Source of the DNA: a virus
Virus record (IMG/VR): IMGVR_UViG_3300033153_010718
Coordinates: 88,853 to 120,043 of that record
Direction: 5' to 3' (one strand)
Length of the DNA stretch: 31,191 bases
The translations under genes and the position numbers were made by a program. A model generated the notes under the pieces. That model had not been told where the DNA came from. It searched no databases and was given only the letters and a program-made list of their open reading frames with translations. Shown piece by piece: positions 2,819 to 30,841 of this stretch; the stretch's first letter is position 1; each line of letters opens with the position of its first letter.

Positions 2819-3018
2819 CCGAGCCGCACGAAGGCGTGGTCGTTGAAGCCACCGAAGATTGGGGTCTCTACGTGGAACAAGGGGACCGCGGCACCGTCAC
2901 GTGGCGCAGTGGGCGCTGCTACGTCGCGTGGGACGATGTCTCGCACGACCTTTACACCACCGCCCCGGTGCGCGAGGTATCTGCAGTAGAGCGGCTAGGC
3001 GAGCTGACCGGAGGGTAG
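2815..3018 (+). CDS. tagged SH3-like small protein
   Basis: GTG in a GTGA overlap; 67 residues. A barrel-like core (GVVVEATEDWG, GDRGTVTWRSGRCYVAWDD) runs directly into the LGEL tag SAVERLGELTGG. It is the last gene before a GGGTAGAAC element, and the TAG of that element is its stop codon. No gene is coupled to its end, yet it keeps the tag, which argues that the tag works as protein. Confidence 0.7.
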   Translation: MTEPHEGVVVEATEDWGLYVEQGDRGTVTWRSGRCYVAWDDVSHDLYTTAPVREVSAVERLGELTGG

Positions 3019-3021
3019 AAC
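3013..3021 (+). promoter_or_regulatory. GGGTAGAAC promoter-like element, copy 1
   Basis: Exact GGGTAGAAC; six bases separate it from the ATG at 3028, with no Shine-Dalgarno between. If TAGAAC is a -10 hexamer, transcription would begin at or next to the ATG, giving a leaderless mRNA. No common -35 box is visible. Confidence 0.5.
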
Positions 3022-3027
3022 AGAAAC

Positions 3028-8817: not shown

Positions 8818-9184
8818 CCGGCAGCTCGACCTGCGCCCGCTCTACCCCATCTTCGAGGAGGTCTCGTTCTTGGCCCGGGACGAGCTGCACACGTGGCTGC
8901 TGGAGGAGATCAGAGCAATCACCGCCGTCGCTGACGACCTGATGGACACGGCCAAGGACATGGGCGAACTGGAGCGGGCGAGCGCCGCGCTGCGGGAGAC
9001 CGAGAGGGCGCTGACCGAGTGGATCAACCACCACACGTCCGGCGCTACAGTGGCCACGGTCCGCGCCTGGAGCCTGCTGGAACTGCACGATGACCCGGTA
9101 ACCGAAATGAAGGCGCAGATGTTGAGGTTTCTGCCCGCGGTAGACGCGCTGGCTTTCCTCGTGCGACCGGCGACTACGCCATGA
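8810..9184 (+). CDS. helical tagged protein
   Basis: 124 residues, almost all helix: LYPIFEEVSFLARDELHTWLLEEIRAIT, DDLMDTAKDMGELERASAALRETERALTEWINHH, and VATVRAWSLLELHDDPV, then PAVDALAFLVRPATTP as the LGEL tag. The heptad-like pattern suggests a coiled coil or helical bundle. Its stop overlaps the start of the QueC-like gene, so the two are coupled. Confidence 0.72.
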   Translation: MPDRQLDLRPLYPIFEEVSFLARDELHTWLLEEIRAITAVADDLMDTAKDMGELERASAALRETERALTEWINHHTSGATVATVRAWSLLELHDDPVTEMKAQMLRFLPAVDALAFLVRPATTP

Positions 9185-9810
9185 CAACCAAGGCGCTTGT
9201 TTGCTGGAGTGGAGGCGCAGACAGCACCCTGATCCTGCACGAGATGGCCCGCGTCCACGGCACGCCGGAATCGCCGGTGCGCGCCGTCGCTATCACGAGT
9301 AGCCAAGTGACCGCGCGCAAGCACGAGAAGCGGGCGCGCACCCGGCTCTTGAGAACGTTCCTCAAGCAAGGGCTGCACGTCAGTCTCTCGGAAATTCACG
9401 TGGAGGTGGTGTCGGGCGCCGGACTGGAATGGCACGGGCTCCCGCAAGCAGTGCTCTGGCTCTACGCTTCCCAGATGCTCGGTCCAACCGAACACCTGGT
9501 GCTGGGCTACATCAAGGGCGATGACTGGATTGCGGACCGTGCCGAGTTCTGGGCCGTCTTCAACGCTCTCCAGAAGGTCGGCGGACGAACAGGCGAGCTT
9601 TGGACACCGTTGCGCTACATCGAGAAGCGCGGCGTACTGGACGGCCTCAAGACCCGCAAGCTGCTCGATCTGACCTGGTGGTGCGAAGTGCCGCCGAAGC
9701 ACAAGGGCAACAAGCCGTGCGGCACCTGCGAGTCGTGCCAGCGGCACGAGGCTGCGCTCTGGCGCCTGGAGAAGCACGGGGCCGGCTACACGACCTGGAC
9801 CGTGGACTGA
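9181..9810 (+). CDS. QueC-like PP-loop ATPase (7-cyano-7-deazaguanine synthase-like)
   Basis: 209 residues. The PP-loop SGGADST is at 10-16. Cysteines 168, 180, 183 and 186 (C-x11-C-x2-C-x2-C) match the zinc site of QueC, which has a C-x8-C-x2-C-x2-C layout. The middle (GLPQAVLWLYASQ ... GYIKGDDW) fits the QueC core, but the usual RN motif is absent. QueC turns 7-carboxy-7-deazaguanine into preQ0 with ATP and ammonia; phages use preQ0 to modify DNA guanine against restriction. No queD, queE, folE or DpdA-like transglycosylase is in the window. Another PP-loop role (tRNA or nucleotide modification) is possible. No tag. Confidence 0.8.
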   Translation: MTTKALVCWSGGADSTLILHEMARVHGTPESPVRAVAITSSQVTARKHEKRARTRLLRTFLKQGLHVSLSEIHVEVVSGAGLEWHGLPQAVLWLYASQMLGPTEHLVLGYIKGDDWIADRAEFWAVFNALQKVGGRTGELWTPLRYIEKRGVLDGLKTRKLLDLTWWCEVPPKHKGNKPCGTCESCQRHEAALWRLEKHGAGYTTWTVD

Positions 9811-11245: not shown

Positions 11246-11614
11246 ATGGGCTTTCTGCGGCGTTCGCAGCTGCTCGACCGGATGGGTTGCCTGGAGAAGG
11301 ACGTCTCCATCGCGATGTCGCGGTTCGCGCGCAACGCCGAGGTCACGGTGATAGGCGCCGGCACGCTGGCGTTCACCTGCCTGGACAAGCGCGGCAAGCT
11401 AGCCCAAGAACGCCTGCGCGTCGTAGCCAAGGTCAAGCGACCAAACCGTCGTGTAGCGCTCAGCGCCAGCATACTGCGTGCACCTAGCAAATCGCTCTAC
11501 TACGAGGTCGTGGCGCTCGACGCTGCTCCCAAGATCATCACCAACCTGCTGATGTTCGGCTTCGTAGAGCCGAGCGCCGTGGACCGGCTGGGCGCGCTGG
11601 AGGCGCCGCTGTGA
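11246..11614 (+). CDS. tagged protein, 122 aa
   Basis: ATG one base after the previous stop, behind GGGGA. Strands VTVIGAGTLAFTC, RLRVVAKVKRPNRRVALSASILR and LYYEVVALDAAPKIITNLLMF suggest a compact beta or alpha/beta fold, followed by the LGEL tag SAVDRLGALEAPL. The N-terminus is helical and basic. No family recognised. Confidence 0.72.
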   Translation: MGFLRRSQLLDRMGCLEKDVSIAMSRFARNAEVTVIGAGTLAFTCLDKRGKLAQERLRVVAKVKRPNRRVALSASILRAPSKSLYYEVVALDAAPKIITNLLMFGFVEPSAVDRLGALEAPL

Positions 11615-12039
11615 GCAACAACCCGAACGCGTCCGCGCAGATGAAGATCCACTGGGCGCGGTGCGCCGTGATCGCCAACATGCTGGGGGTCAAGAGCGGG
11701 GTCGTCAACAAGCACTGGTCCTGCTGCCTCAAGGCCGCGTGGGGCGACGCGACCTGGGCGGGCGCCATCCCCGCCGAAACCGCCAGCAAGCTGCACGAGG
11801 CTTACACCACCTGCGCCGCGCGGCGGGCTGCGGCAATCGATCGCGACGCGCGCGACTACGCCAAGCGGGAGGTGGCGGCCAAGCCCAGGTTCAACCACAG
11901 GCCCAAGCCAGAGCCCACGCCAGAGACCGACCTGCACATCCGCATCAAGATCATGCTCTGGGCGATCAAGAAGTGCGGCGGCATCGAGAAGGCCGAGGAC
12001 GCGCTGAAGCGCGCCGTGCGCTCGCTGGAGGACACATGA
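11611..12039 (+). CDS. helical protein, possibly extended by readthrough
   Basis: GTG start; 142 residues to the TGA at 12037. Helical, with several cysteines (WARCAVIANMLGV, HWSCCLKAAWGD, TTCAARRAAAID) and a proline-rich linker (RPKPEPTPETD) before IKIMLWAIKKCGG and DALKRAVRSLEDT. After TGA-C, a leaky stop context, the same frame continues for 25 codons and ends in a perfect LGEL tag at 12117 (see the entry at 12055). A tagged long form may exist. Confidence 0.7.
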   Translation: MSNNPNASAQMKIHWARCAVIANMLGVKSGVVNKHWSCCLKAAWGDATWAGAIPAETASKLHEAYTTCAARRAAAIDRDARDYAKREVAAKPRFNHRPKPEPTPETDLHIRIKIMLWAIKKCGGIEKAEDALKRAVRSLEDT

Positions 12040-12054
12040 CCGATCGTAACCGGG

Positions 12055-12117
12055 ATGCTGGACGAGATGAGCGCAATCGACCTGCTCGGCGCCTGCGCGA
12101 GCGAGCAAGCCGGGTAG
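12055..12117 (+). CDS. tag-only minigene or readthrough extension
   Basis: ATG to TAG encodes 20 residues: MLDEMSAIDLLGACASEQAG, little more than an LGEL tag. It lies in the same frame as the gene ending at 12039, separated by that stop and five codons. Three readings are possible: readthrough adding a tag, a free tag peptide, or the relic of a small gene starting at the overlapping ATG at 12036 whose frame has shifted. The Shine-Dalgarno is weak. The stop TAG is part of a GGGTAGAAC element. Confidence 0.4.
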   Translation: MLDEMSAIDLLGACASEQAG

Positions 12118-12120
12118 AAC
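12112..12120 (+). promoter_or_regulatory. GGGTAGAAC promoter-like element, copy 3
   Basis: Exact match, six bases before the ATG at 12127 and without a Shine-Dalgarno between, as in copies 1, 5 and 8. Confidence 0.5.
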
Positions 12121-12126
12121 ACTGAC

Positions 12127-12411
12127 ATGAGAAAGCGTCCGCGCCCCAAGCGGATCCGATGTTACTGCTGCGAGCGGCTGATGGCCCCCGAACCCTACAA
12201 GCGGGGCGACGCGATCCGGCGTCCGGCGCCGTCGGCAAATGTCTGTTGGGACTGCCACCCGATCAAGCGGTGGGAATACAGCATCATCAACAAGCGCAAT
12301 CGCATGGACCTGCGACCGCGACCGGGCGAGGGCGGCCTCTGCAAGAAGCGGGGCTGCGTGCCCGGACCGGTCATAGACAAGCTGGCAGCGCTGGCGCGAG
12401 GCGCGCCGTGA
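12127..12411 (+). CDS. zinc-finger tagged protein
   Basis: 94 residues. A basic start (RKRPRPKRIRCYCCERL) holds C12, C14 and C15, and CWDC lies at 40-43, giving a treble-clef-like zinc site reminiscent of HNH-type folds. No HNH catalytic histidine can be pointed to with confidence. Ends PVIDKLAALARGAP, an LGEL tag variant. First gene after a GGGTAGAAC element. Confidence 0.7.
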   Translation: MRKRPRPKRIRCYCCERLMAPEPYKRGDAIRRPAPSANVCWDCHPIKRWEYSIINKRNRMDLRPRPGEGGLCKKRGCVPGPVIDKLAALARGAP

Positions 12412-12854: not shown

Positions 12855-13123
12855 GCCGCCCCGAGCACGTCTACCGCGTTGGCGACCGCGTCCACCGCGT
12901 ACGCGGGCATCCGCTGGCCGACTACCGGCCAACCGGGCTGCGCGGCACGGTAGTTGGCATCATCGACCGGCGGCCGTATCTGATCCGCGTCCGGTGGGAC
13001 AACCATCCGCTGCCCCACAAATCCGCGGTACTCCCGAACCTACGCGGCTCGCTCTACCACCCTGACGTGCTCGAACCGCTATCGGCGATCGACCTTCTGG
13101 GGGAACTACCATGCTCCGACTAG
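12851..13123 (+). CDS. tagged SH3-like protein
   Basis: 90 residues, ATG in an ATGA overlap. YRVGDRVHRVRGHP, GLRGTVVGIIDRRPYLIRVRWDNHPLPHKS and LYHPDVLEPL give the GDRV, GTV and V.W strands of a KOW/Tudor-like barrel. The last strand leads directly into the LGEL tag SAIDLLGELPCSD. GGGGGAA within the tag codons is the Shine-Dalgarno for the following ATG. Confidence 0.75.
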   Translation: MSRPEHVYRVGDRVHRVRGHPLADYRPTGLRGTVVGIIDRRPYLIRVRWDNHPLPHKSAVLPNLRGSLYHPDVLEPLSAIDLLGELPCSD

Positions 13124-13461
13124 ACACCGAAACCGAACGCGACCGCCTCGCCTCCCTGCTGGTGAGCCTGTCGATGGTCTTGCGGCTCGCAGAGGACGCT
13201 GTGCTGATCGACCGGTTCAAGTGCGGCGACAACAAGCCAGCCGCAACGAAGATCGTCGAGCAAGGCCGAGACGCGCTGGCCAACCTGCTCGGCTGGGTTG
13301 CCGGCGACCATCCCCGCGCGCTGGACATCGCGCAGATGCGGCTCATGGAGCTGACGGCCGAGAAGATCACCATCGCCCACGCGAGGGCGATCGTTGATGA
13401 GCTGGCCGACATGCGCGACGCTGTGACAGACCTGGGCAAGCTAACAGAAGAGGCACCATGA
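13111..13461 (+). CDS. helical tagged protein
   Basis: 116 residues, all helix by pattern: TERDRLASLLVSLSMVLRLAEDAVLI, AATKIVEQGRDALANLLGWV, DIAQMRLMELTAEKITIAHARAIVDELADM, then DAVTDLGKLTEEAP, an LGEL tag. The start lies 13 bases inside the previous gene, directly behind its tag. No family recognised. Confidence 0.72.
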   Translation: MLRLDTETERDRLASLLVSLSMVLRLAEDAVLIDRFKCGDNKPAATKIVEQGRDALANLLGWVAGDHPRALDIAQMRLMELTAEKITIAHARAIVDELADMRDAVTDLGKLTEEAP

Positions 13462-14186: not shown

Positions 14187-14461
14187 CGCAGACGGTCGGA
14201 CGCGGCGCCGGATCGGCGCTGGGCATCTGGCACACCGTGCGGCGCCCGTACGACAACGAGGGCACGCCCGAGAAGCGCGCAACGGATTGGCGCCTGTCGC
14301 TCTGCGCGCTGGTGTGGGAGATCACCGAGTTCAGGGCCAGCAAGCCGACCTGCTGGCACTGCCTGAATCGAGCGGTGCCGAGCAAAAGATCCTCTGTTTT
14401 GACGCGCAACCAGGGTAGAACGGCACACGACCAGGAGCCGTCAGCACATGCCGGAGACTAA
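14183..14461 (+). CDS. small basic protein
   Basis: GTG start in a GTGA overlap; 92 residues. TWRLSLC-type helix region (DWRLSLCALVWEITEFRAS) with a CWHC pair at about 57-60. The last 30 residues cross a GGGTAGAAC element and look like unselected sequence, so the functional end may be nearer residue 65. Overlaps the next start by 14 bases. No tag. Confidence 0.5.
   Translation: MTQTVGRGAGSALGIWHTVRRPYDNEGTPEKRATDWRLSLCALVWEITEFRASKPTCWHCLNRAVPSKRSSVLTRNQGRTAHDQEPSAHAGD
14413..14421 (+). promoter_or_regulatory. GGGTAGAAC promoter-like element, copy 4
   Basis: Exact match; 26 bases lie between it and the ATG at 14448, with AGGAG in that gap. This copy would give a short leader with a Shine-Dalgarno. 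A TTGACG lies 11 bases upstream, too close for a normal -35. Confidence 0.5.
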
Positions 14462-14969
14462 GAAGATCACGTACTGCGTAGCGATCGACGCGACCGGCGA
14501 GGTCGGCTCGGGAGAGAAGAGGTACGAAGCTCTGGCCGCACTAAGCACGTTCAGCCTGAGCTTCCACCCCGCGACGAGCACCTACATCGTTTACGAATTC
14601 GAGCACGAGCTGGCTGTCCCCAAGGAGGGGGACTGGACCGGCCTGCGCTCTGTCCCAAGCCCAAGGAGGAAGAAAGTGGCAGCGACTGCAACAGCGACGA
14701 AGAAGGCGACCAAGAAGAAGGCGAAGGTCGCCAAGAAGGCCAAGAAGAAGGTCACCAAGAAGGCCAAGAAGGCCAAGAAGAAGGCCGTCAAGAAGGCCAA
14801 GAAGGTCGCCAAGAAGGCGAAGAAGGCCGTCAAGAAGGCGACCAAGAAGGTCGCCAAGAAGGCCAAGGCCAAGCCGAAGGCCAAGCCGAAGGCCAAGCCG
14901 AAGGCCAAGAAGGCAACCAAGAAGAAGGCCAAGACTTCCAGGTCCGGCCGCCCCACGATGCCTTGGTAG
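14448..14969 (+). CDS. histone-H1-like lysine/alanine-rich protein
   Basis: 173 residues. Residues 1-70 form a small domain with strands (ITYCVAIDATGEV, STYIVYEFEHELAV). From about residue 73 to 165 the chain is built from KKAKK, KAVKK and KAKPK units, as in bacterial and eukaryotic H1 tails. Such tails neutralise DNA phosphate, so a role in condensing or coating DNA is likely. The repeat-rich DNA is unstable by nature, so length may vary between relatives. No LGEL tag. Confidence 0.8.
   Translation: MPETKKITYCVAIDATGEVGSGEKRYEALAALSTFSLSFHPATSTYIVYEFEHELAVPKEGDWTGLRSVPSPRRKKVAATATATKKATKKKAKVAKKAKKKVTKKAKKAKKKAVKKAKKVAKKAKKAVKKATKKVAKKAKAKPKAKPKAKPKAKKATKKKAKTSRSGRPTMPW
14697..14935 (+). 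repeat. low-complexity AAGAAGGCC-type repeat
   Basis: Short imperfect tandem units (AAGAAGGCC, AAGAAGGTC, CCGAAGGCCAAG) encoding the lysine/alanine tail of the gene at 14448. The last part is a regular run of CCGAAGGCCAAG units. It is a coding repeat, not a separate element. Confidence 0.8.
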
Positions 14970-15896: not shown

Positions 15897-16123
15897 GCCA
15901 CCCCTACAACGCCGGCGACCGCGTGTGGCTGCGCCTGCAATCAGGACCGATCCGCGCCACCGTGTCCTCCTGCGGCTGGGAGCACTTCGGCGGAAAGCCG
16001 TGCGTCTACCTCCGGTTGGACCGCGATGTAGCCGCCGACCAGGAAGGCATCTACAAGTTCGGCTGCGGCCCCTGGGTCTCGCCGCTCAGCGCCATCGATC
16101 GGCTCGCGGAGATCACAGCGTGA
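15893..16123 (+). CDS. tagged SH3-like protein
   Basis: GTG start; 76 residues. YNAGDRVWLRLQSGPIRATVSSCGW, CVYLRLDRDVAADQ and GPWVSPL form the barrel strands, then SAIDRLAEITA ends the protein. Two or three cysteines (SSCGW, PCVYL, GCGPW) are scattered rather than paired, so no zinc site is claimed. Confidence 0.75.
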   Translation: MSHPYNAGDRVWLRLQSGPIRATVSSCGWEHFGGKPCVYLRLDRDVAADQEGIYKFGCGPWVSPLSAIDRLAEITA

Positions 16124-16575
16124 AGCACAGGTGGGTCTTCGCCGATTACGACTACCGGTGCATGAACTGCCACCTGCGAATGCTCCGGGGGCCGACGCCT
16201 GCCGACGCGGACGGCTGCGACCCCGGCTGGATCCCCGTCGGCACCCGCATCGTCCGCACACTGCGCGACTCGGCGCACTGGCCCATGGACGCCACCGAGA
16301 ACCTCAATCGGCACGGCGAGATCATCGGCTACGACCTGAACCCGGGCGCGGACTTCTACCGGATCATGTTCGATGGCGACGACGAGCCCACGCGCTACGC
16401 GATCGGGCACCGCGGCATCGTGGAGTTGTCGGTCATCGATCTCCTGGGAGAGCTGGGGCGCGTGGTCCGCGCCGGGGAGGCGCTCAAGCGCGGCCTGCGC
16501 GACGGCCTGCGGCTCCAGAACGGCGCGGTCAGCGCTGACGCGCTCTGCGCCGAGCTGGCGGATGATCCGCCGTGA
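16120..16575 (+). CDS. zinc/barrel protein with internal tag
   Basis: GTG start; 151 residues. CMNC at 14-17 with C33 may bind zinc. A beta-rich middle (VGTRIVRTLRD, EIIGYDLNPGADFYRIMFDGDD) leads to SVIDLLGEL at 104-112, an LGEL tag. A helical tail of about 35 residues follows and itself ends ADALCAELADDPP, a faint second tag. Such tails may arise by loss of the original stop. Confidence 0.7.
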   Translation: MKHRWVFADYDYRCMNCHLRMLRGPTPADADGCDPGWIPVGTRIVRTLRDSAHWPMDATENLNRHGEIIGYDLNPGADFYRIMFDGDDEPTRYAIGHRGIVELSVIDLLGELGRVVRAGEALKRGLRDGLRLQNGAVSADALCAELADDPP

Positions 16576-16769
16576 TGCAACCTGTCATCTACTGCCGCAG
16601 CTGCCAAGTCTCGCTGAGCCTGGCCGGCAACTCCGCGAGTATCATGGCAACCCTCCACAGGGTTGCCATCGCCGACGGCTGGTTCCCTGGGCGCGACGGC
16701 TGGTTGTGCGACGTATGCGTGCCGGGAGTAGTCGATCTTCTGGGAGACCTGGCCGATGACAGACCTTGA
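16572..16769 (+). CDS. small zinc-finger tagged protein
   Basis: GTGATG at the start allows either codon; the GTG gives the usual 4-base overlap. 65 residues. CRSC at 8-11 and CDVC at 46-49 bracket a helix (SIMATLHRVAIADGW), a typical small zinc finger. Ends GVVDLLGDLADDRP, an LGEL tag. GGGAGA in the tag codons precedes the next ATG. Confidence 0.75.
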   Translation: MMQPVIYCRSCQVSLSLAGNSASIMATLHRVAIADGWFPGRDGWLCDVCVPGVVDLLGDLADDRP

Positions 16770-17211
16770 AGCCTTCCACTGGCTGAAGAAGATGAGCGCC
16801 ACGGTGCTGCTGGACGCGGACAGCGACTACACCGTGGTCATCGTGCCGCTCGGCTCGCGGGATGTAGTAACCGGAACCGCACCGAGCAACCTGACCGTGA
16901 GCCACCACGATGCCATCATCGAAGTGCGCGCCAACAGCCTGGCCGACGCCACCGAGCAGGCGCTTCAGATGTGGCGAGCACGCGGTCCGCGCTCGGCCGT
17001 GGACAGTCTGGCCGACCTGCAAGGCGCCCCGAAGAACATCTCCAGCGGCGTCTGCCCACACTGTCGCGGCGCAACCGTCGAGCGCACCGAGATGGGCGAG
17101 ACCTTCAAGCTGGAGCGCGTGATCCTGTGCACGGCGTGCGACGCCAAGACCTTCATCAGCCCGGAGGGCGCCAACGACGCGCGGGCGCAAGGGGGCGTCG
17201 GGAAATGCTAA
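16756..17211 (+). CDS. tagged domain fused to a zinc ribbon
   Basis: 151 residues. Residues 1-75 are alpha/beta (AFHWLKKMSATVLLDADSD, YTVVIVPLGSRDVV, HDAIIEVRANSLADATEQALQMW). The tag SAVDSLADL is at 80-88. After it, CPHC at 100-103 and CTAC at 125-128 form a zinc ribbon. The tag therefore lies between two complete domains, a further example of fusion through a lost stop. Confidence 0.75.
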   Translation: MTDLEAFHWLKKMSATVLLDADSDYTVVIVPLGSRDVVTGTAPSNLTVSHHDAIIEVRANSLADATEQALQMWRARGPRSAVDSLADLQGAPKNISSGVCPHCRGATVERTEMGETFKLERVILCTACDAKTFISPEGANDARAQGGVGKC

Positions 17212-17609: not shown

Positions 17610-17618
17610 GGGTAGAAC
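17610..17618 (+). promoter_or_regulatory. GGGTAGAAC promoter-like element, copy 5
   Basis: Exact match in a 19-base gap between genes, six bases before the ATG at 17625, no Shine-Dalgarno. Here it lies wholly outside coding sequence, which argues that it is selected as DNA. Confidence 0.55.
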
Positions 17619-17624
17619 TAGGGC

Positions 17625-29882: not shown

Positions 29883-30313
29883 TGCGTTCTGTCGATGTCG
29901 GGCGGAACGCCTAGCTCCTTGCCGCCCTCCTCGGCCATGGACTGAGCCTGCGCCTGATACCACGCGCGGACGGCCTTCTCTTTCGTGTGGCGGTCCCGCC
30001 ACTCCTCGATCTTGTCCGTCAGCTCTGTCTTGCGCGCCTCGTGGGCCGTTCGCATACCGGCAAGCTCGGATCGGTGCGCAACGCCCAGCCCGGCCTGCGC
30101 CTTCTGCGCCGCGTCCAGCTTCCCGGCAAGACCGTCGATGGTGGTTTGGAACTTGGGGATGCGCTTCTTCTCGGTGTACCAGGCGTAGACGAGCAGCAAC
30201 ACAAGAGCGCCAAGGGGCCCGAGAATATAGCTCAACCACTCGGGCATCCCGCCGGACGGTGGCGGCGGATGACCGGGCGGCGGTGTCTGGGCTAAGAGGT
30301 AGAACAGGTGCAT
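29870..30313 (-). CDS. membrane-anchored coiled-coil protein, spanin- or holin-like
   Basis: 147 residues; ATG at 30313 behind a purine-rich Shine-Dalgarno (GGAGGTGGAAGGGG). A proline-rich lead precedes one membrane span at about 28-45 (YILGPLGALVLLLVYAW), then YTEKKR and a long charged coiled coil (TIDGLAGKLDAAQKAQAG, EARKTELTDKIEEWRDRHTKEK). The layout fits inner-membrane spanins or small phage lysis-accessory proteins. The KKR right after the span argues for a cytoplasmic C-terminus, against a spanin. No endolysin or outer spanin gene is nearby. Confidence 0.7.
   Translation of the reverse strand: MHLFYLLAQTPPPGHPPPPSGGMPEWLSYILGPLGALVLLLVYAWYTEKKRIPKFQTTIDGLAGKLDAAQKAQAGLGVAHRSELAGMRTAHEARKTELTDKIEEWRDRHTKEKAVRAWYQAQAQSMAEEGGKELGVPPDIDRTHYGD
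30297..30305 (+). promoter_or_regulatory. AGGTAGAAC, variant promoter-like element
   Basis: Core GGTAGAAC, 65 bases before the ATG at 30371. It lies inside the start of the minus-strand gene, where it encodes FYLL on the other strand, so chance is possible. Confidence 0.35.
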
Positions 30314-30337
30314 GAGACCCCTTCCACCTCCAGGATA

Positions 30338-30352
30338 CCCAGGTCACCTGGG
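30338..30352. promoter_or_regulatory. CCCAGGTCACCTGGG palindrome, operator candidate
   Basis: A perfect 7-base inverted repeat around one base, in the 57-base gap between the divergent genes at 30313 (minus) and 30371 (plus). Size and position fit a dimeric repressor site controlling both. No T-run follows, so a terminator is less likely. Confidence 0.4.
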
Positions 30353-30370
30353 CTGGGCTACGACCTAACC

Positions 30371-30841
30371 ATGCCGCCGCTGCCTGATCTGGCCGACATC
30401 GAGTACAAGCGCGGCGACGTCGTGTGGGTCTACTCGCGCGACCGGACCACCAGACGGCGCGGCGATGTTCTCCAGTCGGACGGCTGGAACGTCCGCGTCG
30501 AGATCGAGTACCCGCGCCACGAGCTTCGCTGGGTCGATCGCTTCGACCTGCGGCCCTACTCGGCCGTGGACCAGCTGGCTGACCTGATCCGGTGCAAGAC
30601 CTGCGACAGGCGGCCGGCGGACTGCGACTGCTGGAAGTTCACCATCACAGAGGGCGCCGCCACCGACGCTACGTGGACAACGACCATCGGCCCCGACGAC
30701 GTTGCCACGAACTGCGACCCGATAACCGCGTTGGGCGATCTCATACGCAACCCCGAACGTCCGCCGCTGACCGACCGAGAGTGGAATCGACGAAGGCGCC
30801 GGAACTGGCTGGCCAAGCGCTCCAGACGCCGAAATCGGTAG
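30371..30841 (+). CDS. double-tagged protein: SH3-like barrel and zinc module
   Basis: 156 residues. Barrel at 10-60 (YKRGDVVWVYSRDRTTRRRGDVL, VRVEIEYPRHELRWV), first tag SAVDQLADLIR at 64-74. Module 2 begins at once with CKTCDRRPADCDC (75-87), strands TWTTTIGPDDVATN, and a second tag DPITALGDLIR at 117-127. An arginine-rich tail follows (REWNRRRRRNWLAKRSRRRNR, in parts). Two complete tagged units in one chain. The ATG was chosen because the frame upstream looks non-coding. Confidence 0.76.
   Translation: MPPLPDLADIEYKRGDVVWVYSRDRTTRRRGDVLQSDGWNVRVEIEYPRHELRWVDRFDLRPYSAVDQLADLIRCKTCDRRPADCDCWKFTITEGAATDATWTTTIGPDDVATNCDPITALGDLIRNPERPPLTDREWNRRRRRNWLAKRSRRRNR

Follow-up and report, generated by a model that had tools for sequence, protein, structure and literature searches.

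At positions 12036-12117 of the window (the whole 31,191-nucleotide stretch analysed here), we find what is on balance probably the remnant of a small tagged gene that has collapsed, with both ends kept and the middle lost. The window forms the right end of a phage contig of 120,043 bases (G000), which encodes a T4-type major capsid protein, a prohead protease and a portal. A profile search showed that about 105 of its ORFs end in S-A-(V/I)-(D/E)-x-L-(G/A)-x-(L/V/I), the tag. The features of the site are the following.

11611-12039, plus strand: upstream gene, GTG start, 142 aa, untagged; its stop, TGA 12037-12039, overlaps ATG 12036.
12027-12032, plus strand: ribosome site GGAGGA, 3 nt 5' of ATG 12036, pairing energy -9.3 kcal/mol.
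12036-12125, plus strand: candidate start of the lost gene, an ATG with ATGA overlap, opening a 29-codon ORF (MTDRNRDAGRDERNRPARRLRERASRVEH) that is untagged and whose codon usage is not coding-like.
12040-12117, plus strand: putative surviving tag-coding end, PIVTGMLDEMSAIDLLGACASEQAG, stop TAG; +1 relative to ATG 12036; 15.6 bits; codon usage of a true gene end.
12070-12096, plus strand: tag motif SAIDLLGAC.
12112-12126, plus strand: GGGTAGAAC and a 6-nt spacer before ATG 12127, including the TAG stop of the tag frame.
12127-12411, plus strand: downstream tagged gene for a small cysteine-rich protein (...CYCC...PVIDKLAALARGAP), with homologues in two related records, G002 and G007.

The initial annotation described gene 11611-12039 as untagged, with its frame resuming past TGA-C and running on to the tag, and this is correct. 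Its coordinates and letters were exact: the TGA at 12037-12039 is followed by C, and the frame stays open to the TAG at 12115-12117, reading PIVTGMLDEMSAIDLLGACASEQAG and terminating in MLDEMSAIDLLGACASEQAG. The ATG at 12036, which overlaps the TGA, was absent from that annotation. Among the explanations that it offered, a decayed gene is supported; readthrough and a minigene from ATG 12055 are not supported (see below). An open run of 25 codons is weak evidence by itself: 57% of genuine 4-bp overlaps in this GC-rich contig leave the upstream frame open for at least 25 codons beyond the stop.

The tag itself is a much stronger signal. Scored with a profile trained on tags of G000 and one relative but not on the stray tag itself, SAIDLLGAC reaches 15.6 bits; order-3 Markov sequences yielded 3 such windows per 1.5 million, or about 1e-4 expected in the gap, and the match is not due to chance. 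Codon usage in the tag frame exceeds that of the shifted frames by +22.8 and +21.7 bits, at about the 75th percentile of true gene ends, and the remaining two frames of the stretch show no coding-like usage, so that the part left here keeps the coding signature expected of a gene relic. At the same time, the open frame before the tag is only 10 codons long here, compared with at least 53 in the other tagged ORFs apart from one at the contig end; with that ORF set aside, the stray tag is the sole case among the 105 with fewer than 45 codons in front of the tag. The stretch thus looks like a genuine gene end without a body. At the threshold used, tags were counted on about 105 ORFs in G000, 33 in G002 and 89 in G007, most of which encode small accessory proteins; the head genes examined in the three records all lack the tag. 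Some proteins carry internal tag motifs (window 16120-16575, 16756-17211 and 30308-30841; G000 55593-56577), and the product of 30308-30841 has two of them, as a fusion of two tagged genes would. A literature search for a shared phage C-terminal tag gave nothing relevant.

The other end of the presumed gene is marked by ATG 12036. Overlaps of this kind are common in G000, where the start codon of an ORF of 60 aa or longer overlaps the stop in 61 of the 105 tagged genes; of the 68 NTGA stops of tagged genes, 61 begin such an ORF, and the 4-bp overlap is the usual gene junction in this phage. The ribosome site in front of ATG 12036, at -9.3 kcal/mol, is of a strength attained by 10% of real overlap starts and by 2% of random positions. 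Fewer than 90 bases separate the start from the tag end, which is in another frame (+1 relative to the ATG), so that a start of gene quality stands out of frame with the retained end.

This arrangement argues for a gene whose start (the ribosome site and the ATG over the upstream stop) and tag-coding end remain, whose middle is gone and whose retained ends would now sit in different frames. Initiation at 12036 would then give an untagged 29-residue peptide stopping just before the next gene, and the tag frame would be translated rarely or never. We infer that a deletion was the cause and that the remnant has no function. Deletion pseudogenes in phage gene arrays are alike in that a real start and end are kept, the body is missing, the frames are mismatched and relatives have intact genes in the slot; they differ in that no parent gene was found for the relic here.

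A wrong base or an indel introduced by sequencing or assembly could in principle have split an intact gene. The site lies on a single metagenomic contig and no near-identical record was found for comparison, but correcting a one-base indel would give a gene of about 27 codons, much smaller than the other overlap-start genes (the smallest of the 61 has 67 aa, which places a 27-codon gene out of range), and an independent contig has a comparable structure (G007, below). We regard such an error as improbable.

The relatives bear directly on the preferred reading, that of a collapsed tagged gene. G002 is a record of 159,664 bases whose capsid protein is 80% identical, and G007 one of 275,101 bases with a capsid 81% identical. 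In G002 the homologue of gene 12127 is directly preceded, with an overlap, by an intact tagged gene ending in HDEIRPVSAIERLGEVVRET; in G007 the gene immediately before it, likewise overlapping it, is an intact tagged homologue of window gene 13111-13461. The slot before gene 12127 thus normally holds a tagged gene. As the preceding gene differs between the two relatives, the comparison indicates that the slot is normally filled without specifying the parent. The initial annotation had named an intact separate gene at this place in relatives as the finding that would refute it, and what they contain supports decay. Bacterial and archaeal genomes scanned with the downstream gene gave no relative.

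A second case was found in G007 at 154508-154604 (locus L121), where a GTGA-overlap start lies at the end of a fully tagged gene and opens a frame (VKVYLIY) that is coding-like for 7 codons (+12.7 bits); the coding signal then shifts to the +1 frame, and the tag end that follows (+27.7/+19.1 bits; REREVRGSVVDALAEVVR-TGA) overlaps the ATG of the next gene. It is a collapsed gene built like 12036-12117. Since the upstream G007 gene has a tag of its own, the leftover tag there does not derive from a stop mutation in that gene.

We searched for the parent of the relic among 240 tagged ends, and the best match was not decisive. An intact, in-frame 42-aa tagged mini-gene of G002 (138230-138102, minus strand, locus L019; MTVFVVLRHYAYSNSPAQDGIEVPLDEMDLASAVDALGRCVE) shares LDEM...SA(I/V)D.LG.C with the relic, but it ranks third of the 240 and is not claimed as the parent; the two tagged ends ranked above it belong to genes that look homologous to each other. 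At the DNA level, searches for a parent within the contigs returned short matches only, the best of which, 17 nt, pointed to the GGGTAGAAC element.

Taken together, a coding-like tag end, a start of gene quality, the frame mismatch between the two, relatives with intact tagged genes and a second relic are the grounds for reading the site as the remnant of a lost gene. Several observations count against this. The tag shares the frame of the upstream gene, which would happen by chance in one case in three; the upstream gene lacks the tag that most genes around it carry; codon usage directly after ATG 12036 is neutral or slightly favours the tag frame; and no parent gene was found, with the site covered by one contig.

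The first three of these observations would also fit a reading in which one substitution created the TGA within a formerly 168-residue tagged upstream gene, leaving its tag end as an untranslated leftover. This is the main and a serious rival, which we consider possible though unlikely. One mutation would be enough, the tag is in the upstream gene's frame, the majority of neighbouring genes are tagged, and the frame is coding-like right after the TGA (+2.4/+5.7 bits for 12040-12054). On the other hand, a stop mutation would make a coincidence of the ATGA overlap and of the strong ribosome site at 12036, and the second relic, in G007, follows an already tagged gene and must have had another origin. 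Decay is the best reading under either scenario.

The upstream gene gives little further help in this comparison. It is untagged, whereas its neighbours mostly carry the tag; neither Pfam nor PHROG returned a family at a meaningful E-value, and no homologue turned up among viral contigs, phage records and the records of the related phages. A weak phmmer match in G002 (E 0.03) looks compositional, lies in a non-coding frame there and was set aside.

We also weighed the possibility that the tag stretch is translated. The initial annotation had pointed to the TGA-C as a leaky context and suggested readthrough, by which a fraction of the upstream protein would be tagged. Such programmed readthrough would account for a tag in frame behind TGA-C, but this context is ordinary here. 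TGA is the main stop of the tagged genes (82 of 105) and is followed by C at 18 of the 82; in 12 of these 18 the C is part of an overlapping ATGAC or GTGAC start. None of the 28 tRNAs found in G000 has a suppressor anticodon. Neither a phage-encoded suppressor tRNA nor a reassigned stop, features that would support readthrough without being required for it, was seen. Among more than 220 tagged ORFs of the three related phages, no other gene has a tag directly behind its stop, the one exception being the G007 relic, which sits behind an already tagged gene and behind a second TGA. The A1 protein of phage Q-beta is a known stop-codon readthrough extension, and the likeness goes as far as a UGA stop with an open frame behind it that closes with what looks like a functional module; here, in contrast, the extension has 25 codons and no counterpart elsewhere in the genome, and a different frame, served by a strong ribosome site, starts across the UGA. 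We consider programmed readthrough very improbable; leakage at a background level would be compatible with these results.

The tRNA genes of G000 lie at L002 19830-19902 and L003 150-4785. G002 has about as many or more (L013-L014), together with a tmRNA gene for the tag peptide ANAPVRLAA.

Translation could alternatively begin within the stretch, at ATG 12055 or ATG 12067 (or at 12036 with a +1 shift), and yield a nearly free tag peptide that would compete for the tag's partner. Gene-like codon usage has been kept in the tag frame, and the intact 42-aa mini-gene of G002 shows that very short tagged genes can be in frame. However, ATG 12055, from which the initial annotation had proposed a minigene, lacks Shine-Dalgarno pairing (+0.3 kcal/mol, a poorer value than at any of the 61 overlap starts), and ATG 12067 has a weak site (-4.1 kcal/mol, equalled or bettered by 27% of random positions), so that a usable ribosome site was found at neither start in the tag frame. 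Moreover, no shift-prone site is evident, and this is the only frame of its kind among the 105 tagged ORFs of G000. The bar minigene of phage lambda is similar as a very short open frame in a phage operon, and dissimilar in that ATG 12055 lacks a ribosome site and the content here is a tag end common to about 100 larger proteins. We regard a functional minigene as improbable. There is likewise only a slight chance that the three related phages, with one very short tag gene each (about 27 codons in G000, about 32 in G007 and the intact 42-aa gene in G002), produce tag peptides, nearly free ones, that would saturate the tag's partner or cap it; two of the three would need a +1 frameshift. Were such a peptide made, it would be a natural competitor for that partner and a route to finding it.

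Gene 12127 has no strong ribosome site and would be served by its own GGGTAGAAC-N6-ATG element. We had considered the 29-codon ORF as a bridge coupling gene 12127 to the upstream gene, which is needless given this element. Copies of GGTAGAAC number 37 in G000 (1.1 expected), 39 in G002 (1.7 expected) and 62 in G007, and a start codon follows exactly 6 nt past them in 17, 12 and 25 cases, respectively. GGGTAGAAC looks like a -10-type promoter, and the 6-nt class may serve leaderless mRNAs; in a second class, a leader with a ribosome site comes after the element. Within the window, further copies of GGGTAGAAC-N6-ATG/GTG are found at 3013-3027 and 17610-17624.

Most likely the site itself is ordinary and it is the surrounding tag family that is unusual. 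As a relic, the site would be evidence of turnover, with tagged genes being acquired, shuffled and lost in these phages and the tag-coding end remaining recognisable throughout. The tagged array also holds an untagged QueC-like gene (window 9181-9810; PHROG 1550, E 2e-22). Elsewhere in the contig, the portal protein gene (L002 5703-10454, minus strand) has intein-like interruptions with three stretches matching Pfam intein splicing domains, and window 14448-14969 encodes a lysine/alanine-rich repetitive protein that resembles a histone-like tail.
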